Assembly (NCBI GenBank): GCA_002086835.1
Contig: MVIG01000003.1
Location: 477,569-541,568, forward strand
Source: Mycolicibacterium porcinum
Lineage (GTDB): Bacteria > Actinomycetota > Actinomycetes > Mycobacteriales > Mycobacteriaceae
Direction: 5' to 3'
DNA: 64,000 nt
The notes below the pieces were generated by a model. That model saw nothing but the letters and a program-made list of their open reading frames with translations, was not told where the DNA came from and made no database searches. Both the position numbers and the translations under genes were made by a program. Position 1 is the stretch's first letter; every line of letters begins with the position of its first letter. Shown here in pieces: positions 35,309-63,437 of this stretch.

Positions 35309-36907
35309 TCAGGTGGTGAACAGATCCTGCCAGGTCTGCTCACCGGTGCGCGGCACCAGGTCGGTCTGCCGGTACACCTTGCCGTCCGGGGTGGCGTACC
35401 GTCCGGTCCGGGGATCGTAGGTGGCGATCGCCACCGACGGCCCGTCAGATCCGTTGGGGGTGAATGCACTCGGCGCCATCACCGGCCCATCGGTGGCCGG
35501 CGGAACCTCACCGGCCGGCGGTGCGGCCGGCGCCTCGGCCGGCGGCGCCTCCCCTGGCGGCGCGGCAGGCGCCGCTGCCGGTGGCACTGCGGCCGGCGGG
35601 CGCGGGGTGCCCTCGACGGGTCCATGAATGTAGGCGTCCCGATCGACGCGGGAGTCCGGCGCGATCCCCTGCGCGAGCAGGTTGGGGTCGATCGGGTACG
35701 GGCCGAGGGCGTGCTGACGCATCGCCAGGGGCTCGTAAGGCTGGTCGCTGTTGCAGATTTCGACTGTGGGAGCGCGCTTTCCGGGCTTGCCCATGCACGG
35801 GTAGTTGCGGGCACCGCGGACACCGATCGCTGAATCCTGCGGCAGTTTGCAGTACAGCCCGTCGGGGGTATCGATGTCGGTGGTGTCCTCCGGGGACCGC
35901 CACGACGACGGCGGCAGGAATCCGACGGTGCATGCCGGCGGGTCGCCCATCGTAAGTGTGAAGTCGCCCAGGGACATACCGATCGGATTGTTCTTCGGCG
36001 CACCGTATGACTGCGTTGATGCGATGGACGGTGGCAGAAGGACCAGGAGCTGTTCCAGCGAGGGGCGGTAGGTCACCCCGACCTGACCGAGGCTGGTGAG
36101 GTTGGCCAGCAGCAGCGGCAGGGTCGGCTTGACCTGGTTGAACAGACGAGAGGCTTCGTCGGCAGCACCCGACCCCTCCTTGAGCAGCGTGCGCACATGC
36201 TGATCGTCGTCGGCGACCTGCTTGGTCACCCCGGCCATGCTGCGCGCCCACGTGCGGATCGCCTCGACAGACTCGGCCTGCCCATCGAGAAGCGGCGCTC
36301 CGTCGTCGATGAGCGCACGGGACTGATCGGACGCCGCGTTCGCTTCGGCGATCAGTCTCGACGAGGAGTCCAGCAATGCCCCCATGTCGTTTCCAGTGCC
36401 GTTGAAGGCCTTGAAGGTTTCGTCGAGCAGCGGGCTGATCTTGTCCTTGGGGATGCTGCCCATGAGCGAACTGACCTGATCGAGCATCGGCCCGACGGCT
36501 TGCGGGATCGACGTGCTGGAGGCCGGGATGACCGATCCGTCGTGCAGATACGGCCCCGAGTCGTTGCGCGGCTGCAGATCGACGTACTGCTCACCCACTG
36601 CCGACACGCTCAGCACGGCGGCGTGCAGGTCTGCCGGGATCTTGGGTGATGTGTTCAGCGACAGCGTGGCTTCCGCGCCATCACGGGTGGGCCGCACCTC
36701 GGTGACCTTGCCCATCTGCACACCGCGATAGGTCACGTTCGAGAACTGGTACAGCCCACCGGTTCCCGGTAGTTGCAGGGTCACTGTCATCCGCCCGATG
36801 CCCAACAGGGTGGGGGCCTGCAGATACACAATGCCCATCAGGGCCATGCCGATCACCGATGCCACCGCGAAGATAGCCAGCTGGATTCGGACAAAACGGG
36901 TGAGCAT
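35309..36907 (-). CDS. MceF subunit of second mce operon
   Basis: 532 aa. TM anchor at about residues 9-30, MCE domain at about 38-115 (TVTLQLPGTGGLYQFSNVTYRGVQMG; VSAVGEQYVDLQP), helical segment to about 290, then the MceF Cys block (ACTVGFLPPSSWRSPEDTTD, YCKLPQD, ARNYPCMGKPGKRAPTVEIC). A Pro/Ala tail follows from about 440 to 490 and the C-terminus YATPDGKVY...TWQDLF. Distinct from Mce4F in its tail and in the DIDTPDG segment, which resembles the Mce1F-like branch. Substrate unknown. Confidence 0.92.
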   Translation of the reverse strand: MLTRFVRIQLAIFAVASVIGMALMGIVYLQAPTLLGIGRMTVTLQLPGTGGLYQFSNVTYRGVQMGKVTEVRPTRDGAEATLSLNTSPKIPADLHAAVLSVSAVGEQYVDLQPRNDSGPYLHDGSVIPASSTSIPQAVGPMLDQVSSLMGSIPKDKISPLLDETFKAFNGTGNDMGALLDSSSRLIAEANAASDQSRALIDDGAPLLDGQAESVEAIRTWARSMAGVTKQVADDDQHVRTLLKEGSGAADEASRLFNQVKPTLPLLLANLTSLGQVGVTYRPSLEQLLVLLPPSIASTQSYGAPKNNPIGMSLGDFTLTMGDPPACTVGFLPPSSWRSPEDTTDIDTPDGLYCKLPQDSAIGVRGARNYPCMGKPGKRAPTVEICNSDQPYEPLAMRQHALGPYPIDPNLLAQGIAPDSRVDRDAYIHGPVEGTPRPPAAVPPAAAPAAPPGEAPPAEAPAAPPAGEVPPATDGPVMAPSAFTPNGSDGPSVAIATYDPRTGRYATPDGKVYRQTDLVPRTGEQTWQDLFTT

Positions 36908-38157
36908 CAGTTGCCACCTTCGTTCGGTTCTACCGAGGCAGCAGCGTCAGAAGGTGCCACTGCGGCAGGCGATTCGGGCTGAGCGTCCGGCGCAGACGCC
37001 GCGGCGGTATCGATCAGCGGCGGCATCGTGGCCACCGAATCAGGCGGCGGCGTCAGCGGCATACCGAGCGGGTCCTTCGTGTAGTTGGTATACCAGGGGT
37101 CACCCGGCGCCGGCGTGAGGGGCAGCCCCTCCTGCCCCCACCGGGTGCCCAGGAACAGTCCCCGCTTCAGCCTCGGAATGGTGAAGTCGAAAGTGATGAA
37201 CTGGTTGAGGTAGTCCCCGCGGATGGCCCGGTCGATGAAGTTCTGCGGGTAGGGGTATGTCGGCGCGTATGCCAGCACGGTGCCCAAATTCGGGCCGACG
37301 TCAGCCAGTGCCTTGACCGTCGGTTCGAGGTTGCGCAGGTTGGTCAGCAGGTCGTCGCGTGTCGCATTGACGAGGTTGGTCGCGGTTTCGCTGAACTTGC
37401 CGAACTTCTCCAAAGCGGTCGTGATGCGGGGGCGTTCCTTCACCAGCACATCGAGCGCCGGTGGGATCCGTTGCAGCGCCGTGGTGATCACCTCCTGCTG
37501 TCCGGACAGCGTGCCGGCCAGGCGGTTCAGCGCATTGATGGAGGCGTTGATGTCGTCTCGCTGGTTGGCGAACATCCCGACGATGTCGTCGAGCCGGGTG
37601 AGCAGGTCGCGAATCTGGTCTTCACGGCCGTTGAGCGCGGCGTTGAATTCGGTTACCAGGTCACCGATCTTGCCCAGACCGCCACCGTTGACGAGCACGG
37701 ACAGCGACGACAAGGTCTGCTCGGTCGACGGATATGTCGAAGTCTGGTTGAGCGCGAGGGTCGCGCCTGGGGACAGCCGCCCGGACGGCGATTGCCCCAG
37801 CGGCGGATCGAGCGCGATGTGCATCGAGCCCAGCAAGCTGGTCTGCCCGACGGTGGCGACCGCGTTGGCCGGAACGACGACGTCGGGCTTGAGCGAGACC
37901 TCCACGTCGGCGTGCCAGCCCTTCACCACCATGCGGGAGACACTGCCCACGATGACGTCACTGATCATCACCGGCGAATTGGCTTCCAGCGTGCCGATGT
38001 TGGCGAGTTCCACATGGTAGGTCGTGGCGTCAGCCCCGCGCCCCACCGTGCCGGGCAGGGGCAAGGAGTTCAGTCCGTGGAACGCGCAGCCGGTCAGGGT
38101 CGCCGCCGCGCAGGCGGCAACGGCGGTCAGACGGGTCAGCGACCGCCGACGAATCAT
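36907..38157 (-). CDS. MceE lipoprotein subunit of second mce operon
   Basis: 416 aa. Lipobox LTGC (Cys near 24), MCE domain at about 40-125 (YHVELANIGTLEANSPVMISDVIVG; LLGSMHIALDPP), then helical tunnel segments with MFANQRDDINASINALNRLAGTL. Conserved MceE block YPYPQNFIDRAIRGDYLNQFITFDFT near 310-335. Ala/Pro-rich C-terminus. It shares one base (TGATG) with mceF. Confidence 0.92.
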   Translation of the reverse strand: MIRRRSLTRLTAVAACAAATLTGCAFHGLNSLPLPGTVGRGADATTYHVELANIGTLEANSPVMISDVIVGSVSRMVVKGWHADVEVSLKPDVVVPANAVATVGQTSLLGSMHIALDPPLGQSPSGRLSPGATLALNQTSTYPSTEQTLSSLSVLVNGGGLGKIGDLVTEFNAALNGREDQIRDLLTRLDDIVGMFANQRDDINASINALNRLAGTLSGQQEVITTALQRIPPALDVLVKERPRITTALEKFGKFSETATNLVNATRDDLLTNLRNLEPTVKALADVGPNLGTVLAYAPTYPYPQNFIDRAIRGDYLNQFITFDFTIPRLKRGLFLGTRWGQEGLPLTPAPGDPWYTNYTKDPLGMPLTPPPDSVATMPPLIDTAAASAPDAQPESPAAVAPSDAAASVEPNEGGN

Positions 38158-39620
38158 GGGGTGCCTCCTGGGGCCTGCGGTGCCGGTGCCGGGATCGGTG
38201 CGGCTTCTGCGGGTAGCAGCATGTCGTGCAACGTCTTCGGTGCTTGCACCGGCGGATCCGAGACGACCGGCGATCCGGGATACGCCGCGGGCGAGGTGTT
38301 CGCGGGCAATCCGTTGGGTGCATACGCACCGGGTCCTCCAGCTGGGGGAGCGCCCCAGCCGGCCGGCGGCGCCACGTCATTGGCACCGGTGTAGGCCGAT
38401 ACGGCCGGCGGCAGATCCTGATAGGGCTGCGGACGTCCGCCGGCTCCGCCGGGTGCCAGGTTGGGGTCGGTGTACACCAGGTTCTCCGGGCTGGGCGACT
38501 TCCGCAGATAGGCGTTGAACGGCATCGGCATGTGGTTGAAGTTGAGCAACGACAGGGCCGGCCCGAGGTATTGGGCGCACAGCTTGGACGATTCCGCCGC
38601 GGTCGCGTTCTTGACCGCCCCGATCGCCGAGCACACCACCGACAGCGGGTCGGAGAAGTTCGCCAGCGCGAACGCACCGACCGCGGTGCCGCTGTCGGGG
38701 TTGTAGATGTTGTAGCCGTTGGCGATCGCATTGGGCGCGACGTGCAGGACGTTCTCCAGCTTGATCTTGTTGTCCACCAGGTTCTGGGTGACGTTGTTCA
38801 GCCGCTCCAGTTGCTCGGCGGTCTGGTCGCGGCTGCCCGCGACGAATCGCCGGACGTTGCCGACGGCATCCGCCAGGTTGGTCAGCGCGCCGTCCAGATC
38901 GGAGCGGCTTTCGTCGACGACGCTGGTGACGTTGGCGAGATGGCCCTGGAATTCCACGATCTGGGCGTTACTGTCTCGCAGCGCCGTCACAAACACCTGC
39001 AGGTTCTTGATGATGCCGACGACGTCACCGCTGCCCTGGCCCAGAATCTTTGCGACACCGGACAACTGGCTGATCGCCTCGTGCAGCTTCTCGCCGTTGC
39101 CGTTCATCGCCGCGGCTGCGCTGTCGACGAAGCGGCTCAGCGAGGTGGCCGAGGCTCCGTTGATCGGCCCAAGATCGGACGCCAACCGCATCAGCTGGTC
39201 CTTTACCTGGTCCCATTCGACCGGCACCGCGGTGCGCTCGACCCCGATCTGCGCACCGTCGGCCATCGTCGGGCCCTCGTCTTCATAGGCCGGTGCCAGC
39301 TGGACGTACCGGGCGGCAACGAGGTTCTGCGCCATGAGGATTGCCTTGGCGTCGGCCGGGATCTTGACGCCGCGATCGACGGCGAGGGTGATCCGTGCCT
39401 GCCCGCCGACCGGCTCGATGCTCTTGATGGAGCCGACCTTGACCCCGGCGACACGAACCTCGTCGCCCGGGTAGATCGCGGTGGCAGAGGTGAAGTACGC
39501 GGTGATGGTGGTGGGTTTGAAGACGGTCTGCCGCACGATCACCACCGTGCCTGCCATGGCCAGCACGGCCAGCAGCACCAGCATGGTGCGGCTGATCCGC
39601 TTGCGATTACGGGCGATCAT
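38154..39620 (-). CDS. MceD subunit of second mce operon
   Basis: 488 aa from ATG 39620, which overlaps the mceC stop as ATGA; longer readings into mceC are noise. TM anchor at about residues 10-30, MCE domain at about 38-118 (ITAYFTSATAIYPGDEVRVAGVKVG; VAARYVQLAPAY), MceD signature VPVEWDQVKDQLMRLASDLGP near 130-150, then NIYNPDSGTAVGAF and conserved Cys pair near 345-360. A Gly/Pro/Ala-rich tail of about 110 residues ends in PAPAPQAPGGTP. Confidence 0.92.
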   Translation of the reverse strand: MIARNRKRISRTMLVLLAVLAMAGTVVIVRQTVFKPTTITAYFTSATAIYPGDEVRVAGVKVGSIKSIEPVGGQARITLAVDRGVKIPADAKAILMAQNLVAARYVQLAPAYEDEGPTMADGAQIGVERTAVPVEWDQVKDQLMRLASDLGPINGASATSLSRFVDSAAAAMNGNGEKLHEAISQLSGVAKILGQGSGDVVGIIKNLQVFVTALRDSNAQIVEFQGHLANVTSVVDESRSDLDGALTNLADAVGNVRRFVAGSRDQTAEQLERLNNVTQNLVDNKIKLENVLHVAPNAIANGYNIYNPDSGTAVGAFALANFSDPLSVVCSAIGAVKNATAAESSKLCAQYLGPALSLLNFNHMPMPFNAYLRKSPSPENLVYTDPNLAPGGAGGRPQPYQDLPPAVSAYTGANDVAPPAGWGAPPAGGPGAYAPNGLPANTSPAAYPGSPVVSDPPVQAPKTLHDMLLPAEAAPIPAPAPQAPGGTP

Positions 39621-40699
39621 CGACTTCCTCCAGGAATGCCGTTGTGGGGCCACGGGAATTCGGCGCGGGGGCCGGCATTGTCCGGTGGTTGACCGGCATT
39701 GTTGCCGCGGCGGAATCCGAACGCGTAGTCGAGGAACGGCTGGATGGTCTGCGCAGGATTGAGGTTCGCGACAAAGGCGTTGTAGTAGAAGCCGTTGTTC
39801 ACCGATTCGCCCTGGGTCACCTGGTATTTGGCGAGGCCCGCCAGAGCGCCGGCGATGTTGTCGCGGTTCTTCTCCAGCATCGCCGTCACCGCATTGAGCT
39901 GCTTCAGGGTGGGGGCGAGCTCTTCTTCGTTGTCGTGGACGAGTCCGGAGAGCTGCTGGGACAGTGCCGAGGTGTTGGCCAGCAGGTTGACGATCGCGTA
40001 GCGGCGCTGGTCGAGCACCCCGGTCAACGCGTTCGCATCCAGCAACAGCGTGTTGACCTGTTCACTGCGCTTCGACAGGATGCCCGTCACATCGGCCGCG
40101 CTCTTGAGCAGGTTGGACAGCGACTGGTTGCGGCTGTTGAGCGTCTCCGACAACCGGGACAGCCCTTCGAACGTCGGGCCCAGCTGGGGTGCCATCCGGT
40201 CGATGGTGTCCGACAATGTGTCCAGGGACTGCGTGAGCGCGGCGGTGTCCGTGCCTGCGGTGTTGTTGGTGAAGTCGCCGACGGCGTTGGTCAACGAGTA
40301 CGGCGAGGCCGTCCTGGTGATGGGGATGGTGTCCGAGGCACGCATCGTGCCCGTGCCCGCCGGTTCCAGGGTGAGCATCCGGGCACCGAGCATCGTTCCG
40401 GTGCGGATGTGCGCGGTGGTGTCGGAGCCGAGGCGAACCTTGCTGTCGAGGGTGAAGGTCACCAGCGCCTTGCCGTGACTCAGGCTCACATCGGTGACCA
40501 GGCCCTTGGTGACCCCGGAGATCTTGACGTCGTTGCCGGTGGTGAGCCCACCCGCCTCGGTGAACAGCGCGTTGTACTTGACCGACGTGGCCCACGACCA
40601 CAACGCCTGCGGCTGGAGTCCGACCGCGATGATCATCGCGATCAGCACGATGCCGATGAGCCCGCTCCGGACGAGGTGCGATCCACGGTATTTCAGCAT
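39617..40699 (-). CDS. MceC subunit of second mce operon
   Basis: 360 aa from ATG 40699 (one-base overlap with the mceB stop). Basic N-terminus KYRGSHLVR, TM helix at about 12-31, MCE domain at about 38-118 (YNALFTEAGGLTTGNDVKISGVTKG; MLGARMLTLEPAG), long helical region to about 300 and a short C-terminus. Some MceC subunits carry an RGD or Pro-rich tail; this one does not. Confidence 0.92.
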   Translation of the reverse strand: MLKYRGSHLVRSGLIGIVLIAMIIAVGLQPQALWSWATSVKYNALFTEAGGLTTGNDVKISGVTKGLVTDVSLSHGKALVTFTLDSKVRLGSDTTAHIRTGTMLGARMLTLEPAGTGTMRASDTIPITRTASPYSLTNAVGDFTNNTAGTDTAALTQSLDTLSDTIDRMAPQLGPTFEGLSRLSETLNSRNQSLSNLLKSAADVTGILSKRSEQVNTLLLDANALTGVLDQRRYAIVNLLANTSALSQQLSGLVHDNEEELAPTLKQLNAVTAMLEKNRDNIAGALAGLAKYQVTQGESVNNGFYYNAFVANLNPAQTIQPFLDYAFGFRRGNNAGQPPDNAGPRAEFPWPHNGIPGGSR

Positions 40700-41730
40700 C
40701 AGGGCTCCCCACAGCGTCCGGTGTTCTGCATGATCCACGGGAAGTACGCGGTGCGCCCCTGCAGGTCGGTGACGCGGACGTTCATGCCGCACACGTACTG
40801 GTTGATGAAGCTGCCGTAGGCGCCCAACCGGACCAGCTTGCGGTAGTTCTTCGGCGCGTTCTGCAAGGACAGATCCAGACGTGCCATGTCGTCCTCGTTG
40901 GACAGCAACGGCGCCAGGCGGGTGAGTTGGTCCACGGTGCCCGACAGTGGCGGGCGCGCCTGGGTCATCAGATCGGCCAGCGAGGCGGTGCCGTTGTCGA
41001 GGGCGTTGATGGCTTCTCCGATGGGGTCGCGCTCCTGTGACAGACCGGTGATGAGTTGTTGCAGTTGTTCAACGGCGCCGGAGAACTTGTCGCCGTCCTT
41101 GGCGACCGTTGCCACCGTGGTTTTCAGGTTGTCGATCAGCTGTTGCACGGTCTGCCCGTTGTCGGCGAGGGCCTGGGTGAACGACGTCGTGTGGGACAGC
41201 AGCGATTCCACCGTGCCGCTCTGACCCTGCAGAATCTGGATCAGCGAGTTGGTCAAGGCGTTGACGTTCTGGGCGTTGAGGCCCTGGATGACGGGCTTGA
41301 GCCCGCCGAGGAGCAGGTCGAGGTCCAGCGCCGGTTCGGTGCGCTCCACGGGGATCTGCGACCCCGGCGGCTGGAGCTTGGTCGATCCCGGGCTGTCGAG
41401 GAGCTCCAGATACCGGTTGCCGACCAGGTCCAGGTAGCGCACCGCGATCTTGGTGGCAGTCGTCATGACGACTTCGCGGTCCGAGTCGAAGTGCACCAGC
41501 ACAGTGTTGTCAGGTTGCAGCTCAACGTCTTTGACGGTGCCGACGCGGATACCCGCTACGCGCACCGAGTCGCCGGCCTTGAGGCTGGACGCGTCACTGA
41601 ACACCGCCGAATAGCCGTTGGTGGACCCGGTCCGGTACTGGCCCATGATCGCGAACAGTGCTCCGGTCAGCAGCAGCATCGTCACTCCGAACACGCCGAA
41701 CTTGACGGCGGTCCCTCGGGTACGCGTCAT
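40699..41730 (-). CDS. MceB subunit of second mce operon
   Basis: 343 aa from ATG 41730 (ATGA overlap with mceA). TM helix at about 11-30, MCE domain at about 36-120 (YSAVFSDASSLKAGDSVRVAGIRVG; LVGNRYLELLDSPG), DLDLLLGGLKPVIQGL near 146-161, and C-terminal YGSFINQYVCGMNVRV and a final Cys, all as in mce4B. Confidence 0.92.
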   Translation of the reverse strand: MTRTRGTAVKFGVFGVTMLLLTGALFAIMGQYRTGSTNGYSAVFSDASSLKAGDSVRVAGIRVGTVKDVELQPDNTVLVHFDSDREVVMTTATKIAVRYLDLVGNRYLELLDSPGSTKLQPPGSQIPVERTEPALDLDLLLGGLKPVIQGLNAQNVNALTNSLIQILQGQSGTVESLLSHTTSFTQALADNGQTVQQLIDNLKTTVATVAKDGDKFSGAVEQLQQLITGLSQERDPIGEAINALDNGTASLADLMTQARPPLSGTVDQLTRLAPLLSNEDDMARLDLSLQNAPKNYRKLVRLGAYGSFINQYVCGMNVRVTDLQGRTAYFPWIMQNTGRCGEP

Positions 41731-42914
41731 CCCGGTTGTCCTATCTGGGTGGTGTTGCGCGGCGGGCCGTCGATCGGGCCGTAGAGCGCTTGCTTGAGTG
41801 CGTCGGAGTTCAGCAGGATGCCCTGATTGCCGTACTGCGCCGGGTTGGCGTCGATGTCGGTGACGATGAACGGCGGCCGCTTCTCGAAGCCGACCTCGGG
41901 CAGGCCCTGGCACTGCGGTCCGCCGGTGGCGGCCACCTTCGGCAGGTTGCCCGGGTAGCGGTAGCGCTCGGTGCCCAGCAGGAACGAGTCGAGCAGCATG
42001 ACGCCCGGCAACGGCTGCGGCGGACCGAGGGCCAGTGGCTCCATGCCCTTGAGCGCGCAGTTGAGCGCCGCGTTGTACTGGTTGGTGAGATTCGTGGTCG
42101 GCACCAGCAGGCGCATGGCATCGGTGATCCCGGCACTGTTGGTCGCCACCACGTCGTTGCCGATATCAGCCAACCCGATCGCGCTGAGGAGCGCCGCGTC
42201 CAGATCATTGCGCCGATCGAAGACCGTGTCACTGAGCCGGGTCGCGTTGCGGACGGTGTCCATCAACTCGGACCCGACATCGGCGTACGCGTTGAACACC
42301 TGTGGCGCGACGGCGATCTCATGGCTCATCGTCGGCAGACTGGGGCCGATCTTGGCCAGCAGCGCGTCCAGGTCGACCATCGTCTGACCCATCTTGTCGC
42401 CGCGGCCGTCGATCGCCTGCGCCATCGCTCCCAGCGTCTCGTTCAGCTTTTCCGGCTGGATCTGCGCCAGCACCGACACCAGTTGCTCGAACACCGTGTT
42501 GATCTCGACGGTGGTGTGCGTCGCGTCCAGGACCTGACCGGCATACATCGATTTCGGCGACGGATCGGCAGGCGGGACGAGTTGGACGAACTTGGCGCCG
42601 AACACGGTGGTCGAGGCGATCTCGACGCCGGTGTTGGCCGGAATCAGGTGCAGATCATCGGGATTCATCGCCAGCTTCAGGGCTGCCTGCCCGTCCGGCA
42701 ACGTCTCGATCGCGACCACCTTGCCGACCTGAGCACCGTGCAGTTTGACCTTGGCATCGGGGTTCATCACCAGGCCGGCCCGCGGCGAGATGACGGTCAC
42801 CGACGCGGTGGGGGCGACACCGCCGCGGAACAGCACGATGGCCCCGATCACGATCGCGGCGATCACCACGACCGTGATCAGTCCGCTCAGTTGACGTTTA
42901 GCGTCACGCGACAT
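41727..42914 (-). CDS. MceA subunit of second mce operon
   Basis: 395 aa. TM helix at about residues 11-31, MCE domain at about 36-118 (VTVISPRAGLVMNPDAKVKLHGAQVG; FGAKFVQLVPP), helical region to about 265, then NAALNCALKG and PQCQGLPEVG typical of MceA C-terminal domains. It lies 12 bp after yrbEB. Low similarity to mce4A outside motifs marks it as a different subfamily. Confidence 0.93.
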   Translation of the reverse strand: MSRDAKRQLSGLITVVVIAAIVIGAIVLFRGGVAPTASVTVISPRAGLVMNPDAKVKLHGAQVGKVVAIETLPDGQAALKLAMNPDDLHLIPANTGVEIASTTVFGAKFVQLVPPADPSPKSMYAGQVLDATHTTVEINTVFEQLVSVLAQIQPEKLNETLGAMAQAIDGRGDKMGQTMVDLDALLAKIGPSLPTMSHEIAVAPQVFNAYADVGSELMDTVRNATRLSDTVFDRRNDLDAALLSAIGLADIGNDVVATNSAGITDAMRLLVPTTNLTNQYNAALNCALKGMEPLALGPPQPLPGVMLLDSFLLGTERYRYPGNLPKVAATGGPQCQGLPEVGFEKRPPFIVTDIDANPAQYGNQGILLNSDALKQALYGPIDGPPRNTTQIGQPG

Positions 42915-42926
42915 CAGATGCCTTCT

Positions 42927-44601: not shown

Positions 44602-44791
44602 AGACCACTCGCCTCGACCGGGAACAATCGCAGTTAATTTCCGGGTTCACCATCGGCTGTCCCGCCCACCGGGAAAACAACCCTTCGGGGGTTATTTCTG
44701 GTCAGTCACCGGTGAGCGGACCGTGTCGTTGCCGGCCCGCTGACCACGTGTGAACCTCGAAGTGTCGAGCCATCGAGACGAAAGAAGATCC

Positions 44792-54343: not shown

Positions 54344-54447
54344 CCTGACCTCTGGAGTTCCCGGTCACCGGACGCACGGACCCGACGTCCCGACCACCGG
54401 AACCGACGGGTTGGCGCCATCGTGCCCGTCGGCCACAATCTCGGCCC

Positions 54448-55539: not shown

Positions 55540-55640
55540 GCCAGGGTGCTCAGGAGATTTCCGCTGACCGGGATTTGTCTCCGCCCGGAACCGCGACGCG
55601 GTACATCATCAGTAACAGCCCTCGACGATAGGACCAGACA

Positions 55641-56822
55641 ATGACTGAGCGGGTAATCGACCGGGTGCGCGACATCGCCGAACAGCTGCGCAACCAGGGT
55701 GCCGAAGCCGAGAAGATCGGCAAGCTCACCGACGAGACAGTCAAGATGATGAAGTCGGCGGGCAACATCCGCCTGCTGCAACCGAAGGCGCACGGCGGCT
55801 TGGAGGTCCATCCGCGCGAGTTCGCCGAGACCGTCATGGCCACTGCGGCACTCGACCCCTCGGCCGGATGGATCAACGGCGTCGTGGGCGTGCACCCCTA
55901 CCAGCTCGCCTACGCGGATCCCAGGGTCGCGGCCGAGATCTGGGCCGACGATGTGGATACCTGGGTCGCTTCTCCCTACGCTCCGCAAGGTGTTGCCAAG
56001 CCGGTCGACGGCGGCTACATCTTCAACGGCCGCTGGCAGTTCAGCTCCGGCACCGATCACTGCGACTGGATCTTCCTGGGTGCGATGCTCGGCGACGCCG
56101 ACGGTAAACTACTGATGCCACCGCAAATGCTGCACATGATCCTGCCGCGCAAGGACTACGAGATCGTCGAGGACTCGTGGAACGTGGTGGGGCTGCGCGG
56201 AACCGGGTCCAAGGACGTCATCGTCAAGGATGCGTTCGTACCGTCCTATCGGACCATGGACGCGACGAAGGTGATGGACGGCACGGCGCAACGCGAAGCC
56301 GGGATGACCGACACCCTGTACCTGATGCCGTGGTCGACGATGTTCCCGCTCGGCATCAGCGCGGCCACCATCGGCATCGCCGAGGGCGCGCTGGCGGCCG
56401 CGCTCGACTACCAGCGTGAGCGGGTGAATTCCAGCGGTGTGGCGATCAAGGACGATCCGTATGTGATGTACGCGATCGGAGAGGCCGCCGCGGATATCAA
56501 CGCCGCCCGGCAGGAGTTGTTGGCCAACGCCGACCGCATCTACGACATCGTCGACTCGGGCAAGGAGGTGTCTTTCGAGGATCGCGCTGCCGGGCGACGG
56601 ACCCAGGTGCGTGCGGTCTGGCGCGCGGTGTCAGCAGTCGACGAGATCTTCGCCCGCTGCGGCGGCAATGCCGCCCGGATGGACAAACCGCTGCAACGGT
56701 ATTGGCGCGATGTGCACGTCGGCCAGGCACACGCGATCCACGTTCCTGGCACGGTCTATCACGCTTCGGCGCTGAGCTCGTTGGGTGTGGACCCGCAGGG
56801 TCCGCTGCGGGCGATGATCTGA
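55641..56822 (+). CDS. HsaA-like flavin-dependent hydroxylase (3-HSA monooxygenase oxygenase component)
   Basis: 393 aa (M. tuberculosis HsaA is 394). It belongs to the acyl-CoA-dehydrogenase-fold monooxygenases: LRLLQPKAHGG-type start (IRLLQPKAHGGLEVHPREF near 46-64), GRWQFSSGTDHCDWIFLGA near 131-149, GTGSKDVIVKDAFVPSYRT near 190-208, and a C-terminus RYWRDVHVGQAHAIH. It hydroxylates 3-HSA to the catechol 3,4-DHSA using reduced flavin. The reductase partner HsaB is not in the window. It lies 14 bp before the HsaC-like gene in the same operon. Confidence 0.87.
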   Translation: MTERVIDRVRDIAEQLRNQGAEAEKIGKLTDETVKMMKSAGNIRLLQPKAHGGLEVHPREFAETVMATAALDPSAGWINGVVGVHPYQLAYADPRVAAEIWADDVDTWVASPYAPQGVAKPVDGGYIFNGRWQFSSGTDHCDWIFLGAMLGDADGKLLMPPQMLHMILPRKDYEIVEDSWNVVGLRGTGSKDVIVKDAFVPSYRTMDATKVMDGTAQREAGMTDTLYLMPWSTMFPLGISAATIGIAEGALAAALDYQRERVNSSGVAIKDDPYVMYAIGEAAADINAARQELLANADRIYDIVDSGKEVSFEDRAAGRRTQVRAVWRAVSAVDEIFARCGGNAARMDKPLQRYWRDVHVGQAHAIHVPGTVYHASALSSLGVDPQGPLRAMI

Positions 56823-56835: not shown

Positions 56836-57744
56836 ATGGGACTGATCAAGAGCCTCGGCTACGTCACCGTTGCCGCCTCCGACATCGAACGCTGGCGGCA
56901 CTTCGCGTTCGATGTGCTGGGCTTCGCCAAAGGCAACGGGCCCGACGAGTCGGCACTGTATCTGCGGATGGACGAGCGCGCCGCCCGCATCATCGTCGTG
57001 CCCGGCGACGTCGACAAGATCATGACCGTCGGCTGGGAGGTACGCGACCACGCCGACCTTGAACAGGTCAAAGCCGCACTCGATGCCGCTGGGGTGCCGT
57101 TCAAGCAGCTGTCGCTCGACGAGGCCGACGCGCGACGGGTCGAGGAGGTCATCGCGTTCGAGGATCCGGCGGGCACCGCCCTGGAGGTGTTCCACGGCGC
57201 GGTCCTCGATCACTCCCCCGTCGTCACACCCCACGGTGCGAAGTTCGTGACCGGCGAGCAGGGCCTGGGCCACGTCGTACTACCTGCGCTCGACGTGAAC
57301 GGGCTCTTCCAGTTCTACACCGAGGTACTGGGTTTCAAGTCGCGCGGCGCTTTCCGCGTCCCGGTGCCGCCGGAGTTCGGGCCCGTCCGGGTGCGATTCA
57401 TGGGAGTCAACCAGCGTCACCACAGCCTCGCGATCTGTCCGGCACAGAATCTCCGCGACCCGGGGCTGATCCACCTCATGGTCGAGGTGGACACCCTCGA
57501 TGCCGTCGGCCAGGCCCTGGACCGCGTCAACGCCGAGGGGTTCCAGCTGTCATCCACGCTGGGCCGCCACACCAACGACAAGATGGTGTCGTTCTACGTG
57601 CGTGCTCCAGGCGACTGGGATATCGAGTTCGGCACCGAGGGCATACGGGTCGACGAAACCTATTACACCGCTGAGGAAATCACCGCGGACAGCTACTGGG
57701 GTCATCAGTGGGTGTCAGACCTTCCGGCGGCGATGCGCCCGTGA
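56836..57744 (+). CDS. HsaC-like type I extradiol dioxygenase
   Basis: 302 aa with two VOC repeats, like BphC/HsaC (300 aa). Fe(II) ligands His146 (GLGHVVL), His213 (GLIHLMVEVD) and Glu264 (DWDIEFG) are all in place, as are second-shell His196 (QRHHSL), His245 and Tyr254 (SFYVRAPGDW). It cleaves a catechol meta to the hydroxyl groups; HsaC cleaves 3,4-DHSA. The stop overlaps the next gene as GTGA. Confidence 0.9.
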   Translation: MGLIKSLGYVTVAASDIERWRHFAFDVLGFAKGNGPDESALYLRMDERAARIIVVPGDVDKIMTVGWEVRDHADLEQVKAALDAAGVPFKQLSLDEADARRVEEVIAFEDPAGTALEVFHGAVLDHSPVVTPHGAKFVTGEQGLGHVVLPALDVNGLFQFYTEVLGFKSRGAFRVPVPPEFGPVRVRFMGVNQRHHSLAICPAQNLRDPGLIHLMVEVDTLDAVGQALDRVNAEGFQLSSTLGRHTNDKMVSFYVRAPGDWDIEFGTEGIRVDETYYTAEEITADSYWGHQWVSDLPAAMRP

Positions 57745-59207
57745 CGTTCACCGACGACATCCAGCCGATCCCTGTCGGCGCGATCACCGACTGGGCCGAT
57801 GAAGCCGACGTGGTGATCGCCGGCTACGGCGTTGCCGGCGCCGCCGCCGCGGTGGAGGCGACCCGCGCCGGCGCTGACGTCCTGGTACTGGAGCGCACCG
57901 GATCGTGGGGCGGCGCCGCCTCCATGGCGGGCGGGTTCATCTACCTCGGCGGTGGCACCGATCTCCAGAAAGCATGCGGCTTCGAGGACTCCGTCGACAA
58001 CATGGCGGCCTTCCTCAACGCGGCCATGGGTCCCGGCGCGGACGCCGCGCGGATCGCCGATTACTGCGAGGGAAGCGTCGCGCACTTCGACTGGCTGGTG
58101 GGCTGCGGCGTGCCGTTCAAGGCCGAATTCTTCGGCGAACCCGGCTGGGAGCCCATGGGTGACCAGGGCCTCATGTACAGCGGCGGGGAGAATTCGTACC
58201 CGTTCAACACCATTGCCACACCGGCACCGCGCGGGCACGTCCCGCAGATGCAGAACAAGAAGCAGGGCGAGTCCAGCGCGGGTTTCATGCTGATGAAGGG
58301 CCTCGTCGACACCGCGACGGCGGCCGGGGCACGTTCGCTCTATGACGTGCGCGTGCAGGCCCTGATCGTCGAATCCGACGGCCGCGTCGTCGGCATCCGG
58401 ACCCGGCGCTACGGCATCACGATGGACATCCGCGCCCGGCGTGGAGTTGTCCTGGCCACCGGCAGTTTCGCGTACAACGAAGCCATGGTGGCCCGGTACG
58501 CGCCCCGGATCGCCGGGCGGCCGGCCGCCTCGATCGAGCAGCACGATGGGCAGGCCATCCGGATGGCACAAGCACTCGGCGCGGACCTGGCCCACATGGA
58601 CGCCACCGAGGTGGCGTTGTTCATCGATCCCCAGCAGTTGGTGCGCGGCATTTTGGTGAACGAACGTGGGCAGCGCTATGTCGCCGAGGACACCTATCCC
58701 GGTCGCGCCGGCCAGTTGACGCTGTATCACCAGAACAACATCGCCTATCTGATCATCGACGGCGACGCCCAGGAGGAGGCGATGGCCTCACTCACTCCGC
58801 AGCTGATGATGCGGCCGCCGACCTGGGTGGCCGACACCGTGGCCGATCTGGAGGCTGAGATCGGGTTGCCACCGAACTCACTGCAAGCCACCGTCGATGC
58901 CTACAACGAGGGGGCGGCCCGCGGCGAGGACCCGCTGCTGCACAAGAAATCGCAGTGGCTCAAGCCCATCAAATCTCCGGTGGGCGCCATCGACCTCCGC
59001 GAGAGCACCGGCGGCTTCACCCTCGGTGGCCTGCACACGACTCTCGATGCCGAGGTGCTCCATGTCAGCGGCGAGCCCATCCCGGGCTTGTTCGCCGCCG
59101 GCCGCTGCACCGCGGGACTGGCGGCATGGGGCTATGCCAGTGGCGTATCCCTGGGCGACGGGAGTTTCTACGGACGCCGGGCCGGACGGGCCGCGTCCCA
59201 GGCATAG
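57741..59207 (+). CDS. KstD-family flavoprotein, probable 3-ketosteroid delta4-(5-alpha)-dehydrogenase
   Basis: 488 aa from GTG 57741; GTG 57708 would overlap hsaC by 37 bp. FAD-binding VVIAGYGVAGAAAAVEATRAGADVLVLER near 24-52 and the C-terminal GGLHTTLDAEVL...GLFAAGRCTAGLAAWGYASGVSLGDGSFYGRRAGR. Tyr319 (EDTYPG), Tyr465 and Ser467 (GYAS) fall within one position of the catalytic Tyr319, Tyr466 and Ser468 that I recall for the delta4-(5-alpha)-KSTD of Rhodococcus jostii. Classical delta1-KstD proteins are longer (about 510-565 aa) with a different Tyr-Gly end motif. It would convert 5-alpha-3-ketosteroids to delta4-3-ketosteroids. Confidence 0.82.
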   Translation: MTFTDDIQPIPVGAITDWADEADVVIAGYGVAGAAAAVEATRAGADVLVLERTGSWGGAASMAGGFIYLGGGTDLQKACGFEDSVDNMAAFLNAAMGPGADAARIADYCEGSVAHFDWLVGCGVPFKAEFFGEPGWEPMGDQGLMYSGGENSYPFNTIATPAPRGHVPQMQNKKQGESSAGFMLMKGLVDTATAAGARSLYDVRVQALIVESDGRVVGIRTRRYGITMDIRARRGVVLATGSFAYNEAMVARYAPRIAGRPAASIEQHDGQAIRMAQALGADLAHMDATEVALFIDPQQLVRGILVNERGQRYVAEDTYPGRAGQLTLYHQNNIAYLIIDGDAQEEAMASLTPQLMMRPPTWVADTVADLEAEIGLPPNSLQATVDAYNEGAARGEDPLLHKKSQWLKPIKSPVGAIDLRESTGGFTLGGLHTTLDAEVLHVSGEPIPGLFAAGRCTAGLAAWGYASGVSLGDGSFYGRRAGRAASQA

Positions 59208-59246
59208 CCGCTGATCACGCCCCATGCAGGCATCGTCAGATGCATC

Positions 59247-59273
59247 GACCCCCGCCGCTCTGCGGCGGGGGTC
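59247..59273. terminator. Intrinsic-type terminator after the dehydrogenase
   Basis: GACCCCCGCCGC (59247-59258), loop TCT, GCGGCGGGGGTC (59262-59273): a perfect 12-bp stem 40 bp after the stop of the KstD-like gene, with TCTGCAT but no T-run after it. It separates the HsaA/HsaC operon from the IclR gene. Confidence 0.8.
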
Positions 59274-59335
59274 TCTGCATGACCCCGATCGCATTCCGCT
59301 GTTCATGTGACAGCACCCACATCAATATGCTACAA

Positions 59336-59366
59336 ACAGGCATATGCCTAATAGTCATATGCCTGT
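59336..59366. promoter_or_regulatory. IclR operator candidate: 10-bp inverted repeat with nested palindrome
   Basis: ACAGGCATAT (59336-59345), 11-bp spacer, ATATGCCTGT (59357-59366), all 10 pairs perfect. Within it AGGCATATGCCT (59338-59349) is itself a perfect 12-bp palindrome, and CATATGCCT occurs as a direct repeat at 59341 and 59356. It lies 31 bp upstream of the IclR ATG at 59397. The arrangement fits IclR-family operators and autoregulation. Confidence 0.75.
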
Positions 59367-59396
59367 GGCACATGACTCCAGAGCGGGAGGTCCCTC

Positions 59397-60248
59397 ATGA
59401 CAATGGCTGTCGAGAAGGCCGGCGAGACGCCCAGCGCCGTCATCGACCGGGTTTCCCTGGTTCTCGATGTCTTCGACGGACCGGGTCGGCTGACATTGGC
59501 AGAGATCGTGCGGCGCACCGGGCTGCCGCGTTCGTCGGCCCACCGCATCCTGGAGCGCCTCGTTCACCTACGGTGGCTGCGCCGCGACGGCCGCGACTAC
59601 GAGTTGGGCATGCGGCTGGTCGAGCTGGGCTCGCTGGCCCTGCATCAAGACCGCATCCATCAAGCGGCGATTCCCTTGCTCCGCGATCTGCACCGGGCCA
59701 CCGGACTCGTCGTCCACCTCGCGGTCCTCGACGGCTCCGACGTGGTGTACCTGGAGAAGATCGGCGACCAGATGGTGGCTGCCATCCCGACCCGGATCGG
59801 AGGACGCCAACCCGCGCACTGTACGGCGGTCGGCAAGGCGATCCTGGCTGACAACCCATCATGCGAAGTCGACTTCACCGAACGCAAGACACGGTTCTCG
59901 ATCAGCGGTGAGCGGCAGCTTGCTGCCGAATTGGCCAAGGTCCGCGCGCACGGGGTGGCGTTCGAGCGCGAAGAATCACTGGCCGGATTCGGTTGTGTCG
60001 CAGCGCCGATCGGCCCGGTCGGGGCTGCCGTCGCGGCGGTGTCGGTGTGCGGCCCGATGAGCCGCATGACCTTCGACCACCGACTGGCGGCTCCGGTGCG
60101 GATGACCGCGATGGGCATCTGGCGCAACGCCGAGGTCGGTCCCCGACAGGTGGTGCCAACTTTGCAACCGCTGCGCCCGCTGCGCGTCACCAACACCGTT
60201 TCAGGCGCCCACGGGCTGCGGGCTTCGACCGCGCTGCTGCCGGCATGA
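59397..60248 (+). CDS. IclR-family transcriptional regulator (second of two)
   Basis: 283 aa, ATG 59397 with GGGAGG upstream. wHTH: VIDRVSLVLDVFDGPGRLTLAEIVRRTGLPRSSAHRILERLVHLRWL near 15-61; effector domain with VVYLEKIGDQMVAAIPTRIGGRQPAHCTAVGKAILA near 115-150. Close to the IclR at 46434 (DVFxxxxxLxLAEIxRxxxxPRSSAHRIL). ATGA overlap with the esterase gene, so they are co-transcribed. Confidence 0.91.
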   Translation: MTMAVEKAGETPSAVIDRVSLVLDVFDGPGRLTLAEIVRRTGLPRSSAHRILERLVHLRWLRRDGRDYELGMRLVELGSLALHQDRIHQAAIPLLRDLHRATGLVVHLAVLDGSDVVYLEKIGDQMVAAIPTRIGGRQPAHCTAVGKAILADNPSCEVDFTERKTRFSISGERQLAAELAKVRAHGVAFEREESLAGFGCVAAPIGPVGAAVAAVSVCGPMSRMTFDHRLAAPVRMTAMGIWRNAEVGPRQVVPTLQPLRPLRVTNTVSGAHGLRASTALLPA

Positions 60249-61168
60249 CCCTCGATCCTCAGATCGCGGATCTGATCGAAACCCTCGATTCGGGCTTCCC
60301 TCCGGTACACACGATGACCGGCGCGCAAGCCCGTGCGGCGATCCGTTCCCGCTTCGTCGCAAACCCTCAACCCGAGCCGGTCGGCTCCGTGGCCGACGAT
60401 CAGGTGGCGGTGGACAACGGCCGTATCGACGTCCGGATCTACCGCCCCGATGCACCCGGCCCGCTTCCCATGCTTGTCTACGCCCACGGTGGCGGGTTCG
60501 TGTTCTGCGACCTCGACAGTCACGACGGGTTGTGCCGCAACCTCGCCAATTTGATTCCTGCCGTAGTGGTTTCGGTGGGCTACCGATTGGCACCCGAGCA
60601 CCGGTGGCCCACCGCTGCCGAAGACCTCTACGCCGCTACGTGCTGGGCTGTCGAGCACGCCGCCGAATTCGGCGCCGACCCGGCACGGGTTGCGGTGGGC
60701 GGCGACAGCGCGGGCGGCAATCTCGCGGCCGTGACCACACTGATGGCCCGCGATCGCGGCGGACCGGACCTGGCCGCCCAACTTCTGCTGTATCCGGTGA
60801 TCGGTGCGGATTTCGACACCGACTCGTACCTGGCGTTCGGCCAGGGCTTCTACAACCCTCGCCCGGCGCTGCAGTGGTATTGGGACCAGTACGTCCCCGC
60901 CGTCGCGGATCGACAAAACCCCTATGCCTCACCGCTACACGGTGACCTCGGCGGGTTGCCGCCTGCGGTTGTCGTGCTCGCGGGCCACGATCCGCTGCGG
61001 GACGAGGGCATCGCCTACACCGATGCTCTCGAGGCGGCCGGGGTACCGACTGTGCGGTGCGCGTTCGACGGTGGCATCCACGGATTCATGACGATGCCGA
61101 TGCTCGACATCGCGCACCAGGCGAGGCGACAGGCCGGCGACGCGTTAGGTGAGCTGCTCCGCCGGTAG
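60245..61168 (+). CDS. Alpha/beta hydrolase, hormone-sensitive lipase (Lip) family
   Basis: 307 aa. HSL motif HGGGF near 80-84 (oxyanion hole), nucleophile Ser in GGDSAGGN near 156-163, Asp near 247 (GHDPLRDEG) and His near 279 (GIHGF). The usual lid region is short. It hydrolyses esters of short or bulky acids; in this context it could open a lactone or ester made by the BVMO. That link is inference. Its 3' end overlaps the convergent OYE gene by 24 bp. Confidence 0.9.
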   Translation: MTLDPQIADLIETLDSGFPPVHTMTGAQARAAIRSRFVANPQPEPVGSVADDQVAVDNGRIDVRIYRPDAPGPLPMLVYAHGGGFVFCDLDSHDGLCRNLANLIPAVVVSVGYRLAPEHRWPTAAEDLYAATCWAVEHAAEFGADPARVAVGGDSAGGNLAAVTTLMARDRGGPDLAAQLLLYPVIGADFDTDSYLAFGQGFYNPRPALQWYWDQYVPAVADRQNPYASPLHGDLGGLPPAVVVLAGHDPLRDEGIAYTDALEAAGVPTVRCAFDGGIHGFMTMPMLDIAHQARRQAGDALGELLRR

Positions 61169-62350
61169 CACGGCGCCGTACCGTTGCTCGGGGTCGAGGA
61201 CGCAGTGAGTACGACCGAACACCGTCACCATGCACTTGTTGTTGTGGTTGCAGCGGCCGCGGGACGCGGGTTCGGCGATCATCGTGTTGACCCGGTCCGG
61301 TTCCCGCAGCAGGGCCCGCCCCATGGCGAAGAAGTCGAACCCTTCCCGCACGCCCATCTCGAGGTGCTCGCGATTGTTGATGCCGCCCAGCAGAATCAGT
61401 TTGGTGTTACGCATCAACGGCACGAACTGCCGGGCCGGCTCGAGCATGTACAGGTCTCGATACGGGTAGACACCCATCGTCTGCTTGCCCACCAGCCTGA
61501 TGGCCGGGCGCAAGGCCGGCGGCATCACCTTCGCGAACTCCTTGACCGGGACGTCGCCGCGGAACAGGTACATGGGCTTGTACACCGACGAACCCTGAGT
61601 CAGTTCGATCGCATCGAGGGTGGCATCGGCATCGAGAAGTTGAGCCGTCCGCAATGCCTCGTCGATCCAGATGCTGCCGGGAAGGCCATCGTCCATGTCC
61701 AACTTGGCGATCACCGCGATCTGGTCCCCGACCACCTCGCGAACTCGGGCCGCGATCTCCCGCACGAGTCGCGATCGGTTGTCGATGTCACCCCCGTACT
61801 CGTCCTTGCGCCGATTGATGAGTGGACTCAGAAACGAGCTGGGCAGATAGAGGTGGCCGAAGTGCAGTTCGACGGCGTCGAATCCGGCGTCGACCGCCAC
61901 CTGGGCTGCCGCACCGAACTGGTCGATCACGCGAGCGATCTCGGCGCGGGTGATCTCGCGGCAGTAGGCGAAGGAGGTCGGGTTGACGAATCGGCTCGGT
62001 GCCACCGCGGTGACGCCGGTCAGCTTTTTCTGCGCCACCACCCCGGCGTGCCCGAGCTGTGCCGAAATGGCCGCTCCCGCAGCGTGCACCGCGTCGGTGA
62101 GCTTTCGCAGGCCCGGGAGCGCCTTGCTGTCCATCACGATCTGGCCAGGTGCGCTCGCCCCTTGGGGAGACACACAGCAATAGGCGACAGTGGTCATCCC
62201 GACCCCGCCCTCGGCGAAGCTGCGATGGAAGTCGATGAGGTCGTCGGTGACCAGGCCGTCGGGCGAGCGGCCTTCCGACGTGGCTGCCTTGATCACACGG
62301 TTGCGCAGTGCCACCGGACCCAACTGGGCGGGGCTGAACGGATCGGTCAT
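61145..62350 (-). CDS. NADH:flavin oxidoreductase (old yellow enzyme family)
   Basis: 401 aa; ATG 62350. TIM-barrel OYE: FSPAQLGPVALRNRVIKAATSEGRSPDG near 4-31 (FMN contact), QLGHAGV near 99-105, ELHFGHLYLPSSFLSPLINRRKDEYGGDIDNRSRLVREI near 164-202 (the His and Tyr proton donors and the NRxRxxxE element), then GRALLREPD and a CNHNNKC near 369-375 that may bind Fe-S only if two more Cys were present. Bile-acid enzymes such as BaiCD/BaiH belong to this superfamily; a delta-ene steroid reductase is conceivable. Confidence 0.86.
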   Translation of the reverse strand: MTDPFSPAQLGPVALRNRVIKAATSEGRSPDGLVTDDLIDFHRSFAEGGVGMTTVAYCCVSPQGASAPGQIVMDSKALPGLRKLTDAVHAAGAAISAQLGHAGVVAQKKLTGVTAVAPSRFVNPTSFAYCREITRAEIARVIDQFGAAAQVAVDAGFDAVELHFGHLYLPSSFLSPLINRRKDEYGGDIDNRSRLVREIAARVREVVGDQIAVIAKLDMDDGLPGSIWIDEALRTAQLLDADATLDAIELTQGSSVYKPMYLFRGDVPVKEFAKVMPPALRPAIRLVGKQTMGVYPYRDLYMLEPARQFVPLMRNTKLILLGGINNREHLEMGVREGFDFFAMGRALLREPDRVNTMIAEPASRGRCNHNNKCMVTVFGRTHCVLDPEQRYGAVLPAEQLT

Positions 62351-62450
62351 CGGCACACCTTCGCGCTGACGCCCCCCGCCGTCAACGGTGGCTTCCCGAT
62401 GGTCGGGAATGCGCGCCGACCGGCGCAGTGTCCGGCCGTAATCTCGTTTC

Positions 62451-63437
62451 ATGACCGAGGTTTTCGTGATCGATCGGGTGGTCACCGCGCCGGGCTGCGC
62501 CCAGAAGTTCATCGACACCTACCTGGCCGGGTACGTCCCGGGCGCGCGCGAACGCGGTATGACATTGCGCGATGTCCTGGTCAGTCCGCCCATCTGGTTC
62601 GAGGACCGGTCCAACGTGGTGACGATCACCTGGACGCTTCCGAGCCCTGAAGCCTGGTGGCAGATGACCTGGCAGGGTCGGCCCGACACTTCCGTGGCGC
62701 TCTGGTGGGACAGCGTCACCGATCTTGTCGTCGAACGTAGCCGCAGTGTTGCCACCGCGGCCGATGACGTCACCGCCCTTGCTGCCCCAAATGCCAGGCC
62801 CGGTATACCGGCGGGACCCGCCACAGTCGGGGTCACCCGCCTGGTCGACGTCGCCGAGTCTGATCGCAGCCGCGTCCTGGTGGCCCTGCGCGACGCCGCC
62901 GAACGCAGCGGTGCGCTGCGCGCACTGGTTCAGCCGACGTTGGCGGGATCGCGCAACGGCGGCGATATCCTGGTCCATCTGCGGTTTGCCTGCGACAGTG
63001 ACTGGGAGAACAGTGGTTTCGACGCCGCGCTGACCGATCCGGCGATCACCCGGGTAAACGGCGTCACCTACCAGGGAAGTCCACTCCGCCGCGACAGTGG
63101 CACCGTGTACCGGGCGCTGCTGCTGCGAGTCCCTGCCGAGGTGGAGGCCAAGACAGTCGCGGCATTCGAACGCGAGCTCGCGTCGATGCCCCGATACGTG
63201 TCGACGATCGCCGCGTGGCAACTGAGCCGGGTAGAGCAGCCCATCGGCACCAGCGAGTGGACGCACGTCTTCGAACAGGAATTCACCGACGTCGACGGTC
63301 TGATGGGCCCCTACCTGATGCATCCGATCCACTGGGCAGTGGTCGACCGCTGGTTCGACCCCGAGACCACCGACATCGTCGTCCGCGACCGGGTGTGCCA
63401 CAGCTTCTGCGAGCTACCCGCCCCTGTACTCACCTGA
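62451..63437 (+). CDS. Protein with C-terminal Dabb-type (stress-responsive A/B barrel) domain
   Basis: 328 aa from ATG 62451, divergent from the OYE gene (100-bp gap). The C-terminal half (about residues 220-320: YRALLLRVPAEVEAKTVAAFERELASMPRYVSTIAAW...WTHVFEQEFTDVDGLMGPYLMHPIHWAVVDRWFDPE) matches the Dabb dimeric ferredoxin-like fold, including the HPIH segment. The N-terminal half (about 1-120) looks like a second dimeric-barrel unit (VFVIDRVVTAPGCAQKFIDTYLAGYVPGARERGM). Function unknown; such proteins can be aldolases, cyclases or scavengers of reactive intermediates. Confidence 0.72.
   Translation: MTEVFVIDRVVTAPGCAQKFIDTYLAGYVPGARERGMTLRDVLVSPPIWFEDRSNVVTITWTLPSPEAWWQMTWQGRPDTSVALWWDSVTDLVVERSRSVATAADDVTALAAPNARPGIPAGPATVGVTRLVDVAESDRSRVLVALRDAAERSGALRALVQPTLAGSRNGGDILVHLRFACDSDWENSGFDAALTDPAITRVNGVTYQGSPLRRDSGTVYRALLLRVPAEVEAKTVAAFERELASMPRYVSTIAAWQLSRVEQPIGTSEWTHVFEQEFTDVDGLMGPYLMHPIHWAVVDRWFDPETTDIVVRDRVCHSFCELPAPVLT

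Follow-up and report, generated by a model that had tools for sequence, protein, structure and literature searches.

A second mce operon and its divergent steroid-type island in Mycolicibacterium porcinum: a C-19+-type cluster with a common operator-like site

The mce operon and the catabolic island

The window analysed here is a stretch of 64,000 nucleotides at the end of contig C26 of Mycolicibacterium porcinum (genome G000, 6.96 Mb), and the subject of this report is an mce operon within it together with the steroid-type catabolic island that starts divergently beside it. A first-pass annotation, made from the letters alone, had described a complete operon of a type other than mce4 (35309-44554) and an island reaching to 63437, and both are present: the start of the YrbEA gene (44554) and that of the HsaD-like gene (44792) are separated by a gap of 237 bp. 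The island genes that it named are also found (Table 1), the NTF2-fold gene being a SnoaL_4 gene and the three regulators being one TetR and two IclR proteins. Among the best 80 of 346 matches, the nearest named relatives by the HsaD-like protein include Mycolicibacterium akin to M. peregrinum, M. setense and M. fortunisiensis.

The operon fits the layout of actinobacterial mce transporters, in which two YrbE permeases precede six MCE-domain proteins; among the latter, MceE has a lipobox-like LTGC sequence in its N-terminus. The genome contains 67 MCE-domain matches; judged by eye, all but two lone ones fall into 11 operons, and two of the operons lie in the window. One stands beside the KstR motif (TnnAACnnGTTnnA), which occurs in the window only at 21953 and 23250, so the island shows, as had been remarked, no KstR operator motif. 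The YrbEA of the other, second operon is 69% identical to the mce4-type copy and lies on a separate branch; as it does not cluster with the KstR-linked operon, the second operon is not Mce4. A small protein gene with no Pfam match (34840-35238) lies beside mceF and adjoins most of the operons read of this mce subfamily, and a perfect hairpin at 35272-35302, a probable terminator, separates the mce operon from this neighbour.

Table 1. Coordinates of the second mce operon, the island genes and the operator-like sites in the window
Feature	Position	Strand	Remark
MceF	35309..36907	-	
MceE	36907..38157	-	N-terminus with LTGC
MceD	38154..39620	-	
MceC	39617..40699	-	
MceB	40699..41730	-	
MceA	41727..42914	-	
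YrbEB permease	42927..43787	-	
YrbEA permease	43784..44554	-	first gene of operon; nearest solved relative YrbE1A of Mce1, 332 bits
HsaD2-type meta-cleavage hydrolase	44792..45673	+	Ser/Asp/His motifs kept
TetR regulator	45645..46307	-	candidate repressor
IclR regulator 1	46470..47285	+	
SDR, 3alpha-hydroxysteroid dehydrogenase type	47293..48135	-	
Conserved protein	48138..48914	-	no Pfam match
SnoaL_4 (NTF2-fold) protein	48924..49418	-	
Luciferase-like F420-type oxidoreductase	49415..50257	-	TIGR03619, above cut-off
SDR oxidoreductase	50266..51060	-	recognised from sequence; present in relatives
SDR oxidoreductase	51069..51902	-	recognised from sequence; present in relatives
SDR oxidoreductase	51899..52702	-	recognised from sequence; present in relatives
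Steroid monooxygenase (STMO) type Baeyer-Villiger enzyme	52699..54315	-	FxGxxxHxxxWP present
KshB2-type reductase	54448..55539	+	FAD, NAD, 2Fe-2S
HsaA2-type flavin monooxygenase	55641..56822	+	
HsaC2-type extradiol dioxygenase	56836..57744	+	His, His, Glu positions kept
3-Ketosteroid Delta4-(5alpha)-dehydrogenase type flavoprotein	57741..59207	+	
IclR regulator 2	59397..60248	+	occurs in many related clusters
HSL-type carboxylesterase	60245..61168	+	Abhydrolase_3; HGGG, GDSAGG
Old yellow enzyme (OYE) family reductase	61145..62356	-	
Dabb-domain protein	62451..63437	+	
Operator-like palindrome, mce/hsaD2 divergent promoter	44660..44674	.	TCCCGCCCACCGGGA
Operator-like site, STMO/kshB2 divergent promoter	54388..54402	.	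1 mismatch
Operator-like site, upstream of hsaA2	55559..55573	.	1 mismatch
Operator-like palindrome, between OYE and Dabb gene	62394..62408	.	TCCCGATGGTCGGGA

Comparison with relatives of solved structure places the ring-degrading enzymes with those for steroids. The HsaC-like protein matches 2ZI8 best (294 bits, versus 186 for BphC 1HAN), the HsaA-like protein matches 2OR0 (562 bits), 3AFE (306) and the '3-HSA hydroxylase' 2RFQ (289) ahead of p-hydroxyphenylacetate hydroxylase (173), and the HsaD-like protein scores 226 bits with HsaD and 185 with BphD; 2ZI8 and 3AFE are, we assume, HsaC and HsaA of Mycobacterium tuberculosis, and 2OR0 a protein of strain RHA1. Because steroid enzymes are nearest for all three among solved relatives, the closer kinship with monocyclic-aromatic enzymes that the first-pass annotation had named as the contrary outcome was not found. 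Against the NCBIfam models, the three score below the cut-offs for the cholesterol equivalogs (HsaA 367 versus 450, HsaC 367 versus 450 and HsaD 285 versus 400 bits), as would be expected of a paralogous set. The His, His and Glu of HsaC2 and the Ser/Asp/His of HsaD2 are conserved when set against the C22 copies of this genome; the former are presumably ligand positions, and the HsaD2 motifs are likewise assumed to have their familiar roles. The short-chain dehydrogenase/reductase (SDR) at 47293 matches 3alpha-hydroxysteroid dehydrogenase (3alpha-HSD)/carbonyl reductase (1FJH/2DKN, 175-181 bits).

Two assignments required adjustment. The flavoprotein at 57741 had been placed in the KstD family, and although the flavoprotein is there, it is not a 3-ketosteroid Delta1-dehydrogenase (Delta1-KSTD): it scores below the KstD cut-offs, and the 'KstD' identity was dropped since the match to the 3-ketosteroid Delta4-(5alpha)-dehydrogenase (Delta4-(5alpha)-KSTD) 4AT0 is far better (726 bits; a fumarate reductase scores 106 and the highest-scoring Delta1-KSTD 99). 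The EDTY and GYASG.S motifs, whose residues presumably act as in Delta4-(5alpha)-KSTD, are kept, and this close homology allows the protein to be classed as Delta4-(5alpha)-KSTD type. A perfect hairpin at 59247-59273 follows its gene and is a probable terminator. The Baeyer-Villiger monooxygenase (BVMO) predicted at 52699 is present and can be refined to the steroid monooxygenase type that acts on C21 20-ketosteroids, being nearer to STMO 4AOS (820 bits) than to other solved BVMOs (phenylacetone monooxygenase, 635 bits) and containing FxGxxxHxxxWP, which we take to be the BVMO motif. We also take 4AOS to be the C21-ketosteroid enzyme of Rhodococcus rhodochrous, an assumption in line with the titles of works that PMC12239570 cites.

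Membership in the C-19+ cluster family

The first-pass annotation was not aware of any characterised example of this arrangement, but in kind it is not new: judged by gene order, lengths and identity, the island is orthologous to part of the C-19+ steroid cluster found in M. smegmatis and M. neoaurum (PMC5962712, PMC5270728), and together with its mce operon it is a local, rearranged version of that cluster. A 36.7-kb contig of M. neoaurum ATCC 25795 carries orthologs of the island genes from OYE to HsaD at 65-92% identity. They adjoin a flavin reductase, a KshA of 385 aa and two KstD-like genes of 515 and 558 aa, the latter of which scores above the NCBIfam KstD cut-off. Gene order and lengths on this contig agree with MSMEG_2867 (522 aa), 2869 (558), 2870 (386) and 2893 (351) of M. 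smegmatis, which was compared through a published table (PMC5270728), and KstD2 and KstD3 of M. neoaurum ATCC 25795 have been placed in the C-19+ homolog (PMC5962712). A second hsaA-hsaC-kshB block with hsaD is present, distinct from the KstR copies, and the M. neoaurum genome contains two strong HsaC matches, the island copy and one at 50%.

The cluster's own KshA, KstD and HsaB-type reductase lie outside the window, at the end of contig C29, where a flavin reductase (HsaB-type), KstD, KshA2, TetR, acyl-CoA-dehydrogenase-like genes, a FadD-like gene and a second BVMO are found; several of these names express identity to M. neoaurum genes whose family was recognised by eye, and that of KstD is based on 65% identity to M. 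neoaurum gene n02, itself above the NCBIfam KstD cut-off. The notion that the cluster lacks KshA was dismissed with the finding of KshA2. The window ends in an HNH/DUF222 gene (63448-63930, minus strand), presumably of 13E12 type, that is cut by the contig end. Because its relative in locus L166, a 413-aa version (79% over 173 aa), lies between both cluster halves, the split between C26 and C29 is most likely an assembly break, and the two contigs would be adjacent.

The order OYE-Est-IclR-Delta4KSTD-hsaC-hsaA-kshB-STMO-SDR-3aHSD-hsaD, with KshA2, KstD and TetR further along, is that of the C-19+ cluster, and the gene numbers of M. smegmatis put an mce set (MSMEG_2854-2865) ahead of the kstD genes 2867/2869 (PMC4881515, PMC5270728). 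Here, however, the mce operon stands at the hsaD end rather than the kstD2 end, there are additional TetR, IclR1, luciferase-like monooxygenase (LLM) and SnoaL genes as well as a 13E12-type gene inside the cluster, and no kstD2 (n00) ortholog lies beside the other cluster genes on C29. On contig C1 of this genome (L152, 10699-15065), a FadD-like gene (25% to n15), a KstD-like flavoprotein (68% to n00) and a KshA-like Rieske oxygenase (52% to n03) may form another small steroid-like set.

Other known systems are similar in part. The mce4/KstR regulon also joins an mce importer to steroid catabolic genes, and an mce4-type operon (11330-21724) lies in the same window, but the island differs from it in mce branch, in the lack of a KstR motif and in its palindrome. 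In Caenibius tardaugens, progesterone is converted to testosterone acetate by a BVMO or LLM enzyme (PMC12239570); its pdc progesterone cluster is similar by gene type, with BVMO and LLM beside regulators, whereas here ring A/B genes and an mce importer are joined in. The clusters on pRHL1 of R. jostii RHA1 and pLRE138 of R. erythropolis are related as well (HsaA 62-68%, HsaC 60-62%), with the difference that MFS transporters are found in the pLRE138 cluster.

An mce clade and a common palindrome

In a genus sample of 78 genomes, HsaC2 was found in 43 (E <=1e-130) and a close YrbEA in 66 (E <=1e-110), and the two lie on one contig within 47 kb in 17 of the 43 HsaC2 genomes by hand count. A tree of the operons of all 85 YrbEA matches with at least 85% identity, from which matches at 69-73% were excluded, comprised 90 operons with outgroups and 3036 columns; five of these operons are outgroups from G000 and enter neither count below, and nine consist of at most three genes, owing to contig ends or dissimilar neighbours, which makes their placement weak. 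With support 1.0, 25 operons form a clade that includes the one in the window. Within this clade, 19 of 25 operons lie no more than 50 kb from an HsaC2 or kstD2-type gene, compared with 0/60 outside it (distances counted by hand), which is the co-occurrence across genomes that the first-pass annotation had proposed to look for. The 60 other operons are not claimed as one clade (support 0.404 in a first, 71-operon tree).

The mce operon occurs at the hsaD end of the cluster in some members of the clade (window, L127, L129, L131, L133, L137) and at the kstD2 end in others (L111, L112, L114, L116, L119, L120, L121, L123, L125). Two placements with the same partner genes favour selection over a frozen neighbourhood.

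The second link is a palindrome, TCCCG-N5-CGGGA, that is conserved in the mce/hsaD intergenic region (alignment footprint of 24 sequences). With up to one mismatch and within 400 bp upstream of YrbEA, it is present in 21/25 clade operons, exactly in 11, but in only 4/60 others and never exactly; single-base shuffles yield it at about 4%. The first tree had given 37/40 clade members versus 1/24 others, a biased sample, as HsaD had led to 20 of the 40 and the remainder were picked once their linkage was known, and the 85-match count replaces it. By promoter, the site is found in 28/28 mce/hsaD, 17/28 STMO/hsaA, 16/27 STMO/kshB and 3/4 kstD2-type regions, counts that include overlapping loci of one contig (e.g. 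L017/L131, L040/L137, L053/L138) and are thus not fully independent. It is also found at the OYE promoter in nine loci read (window, L062, L099, L153, L155, L162, L164, L165 and L166) and not in L161. Inside operons it occurs in none of 67 hsaA-hsaC, 42 hsaC-Delta4KSTD and 28 Delta4KSTD-IclR2 junctions and in 4/35 at mceC-mceD, and coding sequence contains 156 sites in 1,527,131 bp.

An exact site lies at the promoter of the cluster TetR on C29. This protein is 47% identical to the window TetR, belongs to the same subfamily and has a very similar DNA-binding region, and because of this a cluster TetR is the best candidate repressor; the window TetR is 44% identical to that of M. neoaurum, where no site was seen between the C-19+ TetR and its neighbour. 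No exact KstR or KstR2 motif was found by motif test at 35-64 kb, nor a KstR2 motif in the whole window, and the cluster is predicted to be controlled independently of KstR.

Other candidate elements were set aside. The pair GGCATATGCC / GTCGTATGAC was rejected as a shared operator, since relatives do not preserve GTCGTATGAC at 44590 and part of the close group retains no more than a TATGAC core. A double palindrome around GGCATATGCC/GTCATATGCC (59336-59366), unlike TCCCG-N5-CGGGA, lies upstream of the IclR2 gene and is probably a site of IclR2 self-control. An exact extended consensus was tried as a genome-wide regulon marker and is not specific enough. A limited literature search, not aimed at the motif itself, found no mention of a TCCCG-N5-CGGGA-type operator; as far as that search goes, three things look new: the common palindrome, the link between it and a single mce clade, and the substrate pointer discussed below.

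A proposed regulon for C19/C21 and reduced steroids

The first-pass annotation had proposed that a further steroid-type pathway exists apart from the KstR set and is served by its own mce importer, and this proposal has gained strength: the pairing recurs across many genomes, and the operator-like site is common to both parts. The coupling of operon and island is well supported by sequence evidence, and we infer from it a TetR-controlled regulon, separate from KstR, that would import and degrade C19/C21 and 5alpha/3alpha-reduced steroids (probability about 0.7). A cluster TetR would repress the mce and catabolic genes jointly, and the Mce importer would take up C19/C21 steroids. Reduced (5alpha/3alpha) steroids would be converted by 3alpha-HSD and Delta4-(5alpha)-KSTD to 4-ene-3-ones, and the C21 20-keto side chain would be cut by STMO and esterase to give a 17-hydroxy/17-keto steroid. 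KstD and KshA2B2 would then open ring B, and HsaA2(B2), C2 and D2 would remove ring A; from there the KstR2 pathway would take over.

The substrate pointer derives from the gene content of related loci. STMO is found in 56/61 loci with HsaD and HsaA, Delta4-KSTD in 46/50 and the esterase in 6/8 with enough sequence, while KshB (18/61) and 3alpha-HSD (19/61) were counted at 50% identity and 40% length, a threshold that misses divergent copies. STMO followed by the esterase would fit removal of a C21 20-keto side chain, and Delta4-(5alpha)-KSTD with 3alpha-HSD would point to reduced steroids; therefore, C21 and 5alpha/3alpha-reduced steroids appear more likely as natural substrates than plain androgens alone.

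Several observations weigh against the proposed regulon. The mce operon is directly upstream of HsaD in only 23/73 HsaD loci, 26/43 HsaC2 genomes have no close YrbEA within 47 kb (some assemblies being fragmented), and the 41 kb read for each of the two Rhodococcus clusters hold the core genes but gave no mce match. Four of 25 clade operons have no site, and the kshB-hsaA promoters have it in a minority (10/33). The exact extended consensus occurs ten times in G000 with three in the cluster (two for the reversed control), and of five other genomes it falls within the cluster in G029 and G086, outside it in G082 and G021, and in G004 at C1:376723, about 8 kb beyond the cluster part read. In M. 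smegmatis RNA-seq, MSMEG_2854-2865 are up on cholesterol versus androstenedione and MSMEG_2854-2861 are up versus glycerol (PMC4881515), and C-19+ reportedly responds neither to phytosterol nor to C19 steroids as activators (PMC10672877).

The strongest alternative, though a doubtful one, is a pathway for plain C19 androgens (testosterone, androstenedione) only, with STMO, esterase, 3alpha-HSD and Delta4-KSTD as side activities. The published statements conflict on this point: according to one account, efficient use of androstenedione, androstadienedione and 9-hydroxy-androstenedione apparently requires C-19+ (AD, ADD and 9OH-AD; PMC5962712), whereas the reported lack of activation by C19 steroids (PMC10672877) argues the other way, as do the frequencies of STMO and Delta4-KSTD, which suggest a core role.

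It is considerably less probable that the mce operon is only a neighbour, a general lipid (e.g. fatty acid) carrier like its subfamily relatives, brought next to the island by chance or shared history. Other subfamily operons, including that on C23 of G000 (YrbEA 90%), do lie away from C-19+ genes, several adjoin an aldehyde-dehydrogenase-like gene, and six of the 25 clade members (L145, L157, L186, L188, L200 and L202) are unlinked to HsaC2 or kstD2, which also counts against the regulon. Chance adjacency, however, sits poorly with linkage at two different cluster ends within one clade and with the skewed distribution of the site, and four of the six unlinked members (L145, L157, L200, L202) retain it exactly, while L186 and L188 do not.

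A non-steroid aromatic or terpenoid as substrate of an HsaACD-like set shifted from the cholesterol enzymes, to which the sub-cut-off scores and a passed biphenyl-diol dioxygenase model might point, was rejected as the principal explanation and is very improbable, given that the nearest characterised relatives among solved structures are steroid enzymes and that KshA, KstD, STMO and Delta4-KSTD surround the set.

Returning to the TetR-controlled regulon, a more specific and quite tentative form of it is that this Mce lineage is dedicated to C19/C21 steroid hormones and that the TetR, on sensing a pregnane or 5alpha-reduced steroid, would free TCCCG-N5-CGGGA and so switch on, as a single regulon, import, side-chain removal by STMO and esterase, 5alpha/3alpha processing and the cleavage of rings A and B. 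If true, this would supply the natural trigger of the 'silent' C-19+ pathway, whose natural activation is reported as not established (PMC10672877); it would also mean that Mce importers are specialised by steroid class, and Mce4 would no longer be the only steroid-linked Mce family but one of two. Steroid drug production with mycobacteria gives the C-19+ cluster practical importance (PMC5962712), and with candidates for the operator and its TetR, an importer tied to the cluster and enzymes pointing to C21 and 5alpha/3alpha-reduced steroids, its activation becomes directly testable.

Among relatives, two C-19+-type mce copies occur in each of G013 (L116/L117) and G018 (L119/L120), both of which have two HsaC2, and G018 also has two kstD2-type genes. 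On contig RXJD01000021 of a metagenome assembly (L049/L053), two HsaD-like copies flank the mce operon, and the STMO and SDR genes are reoriented.

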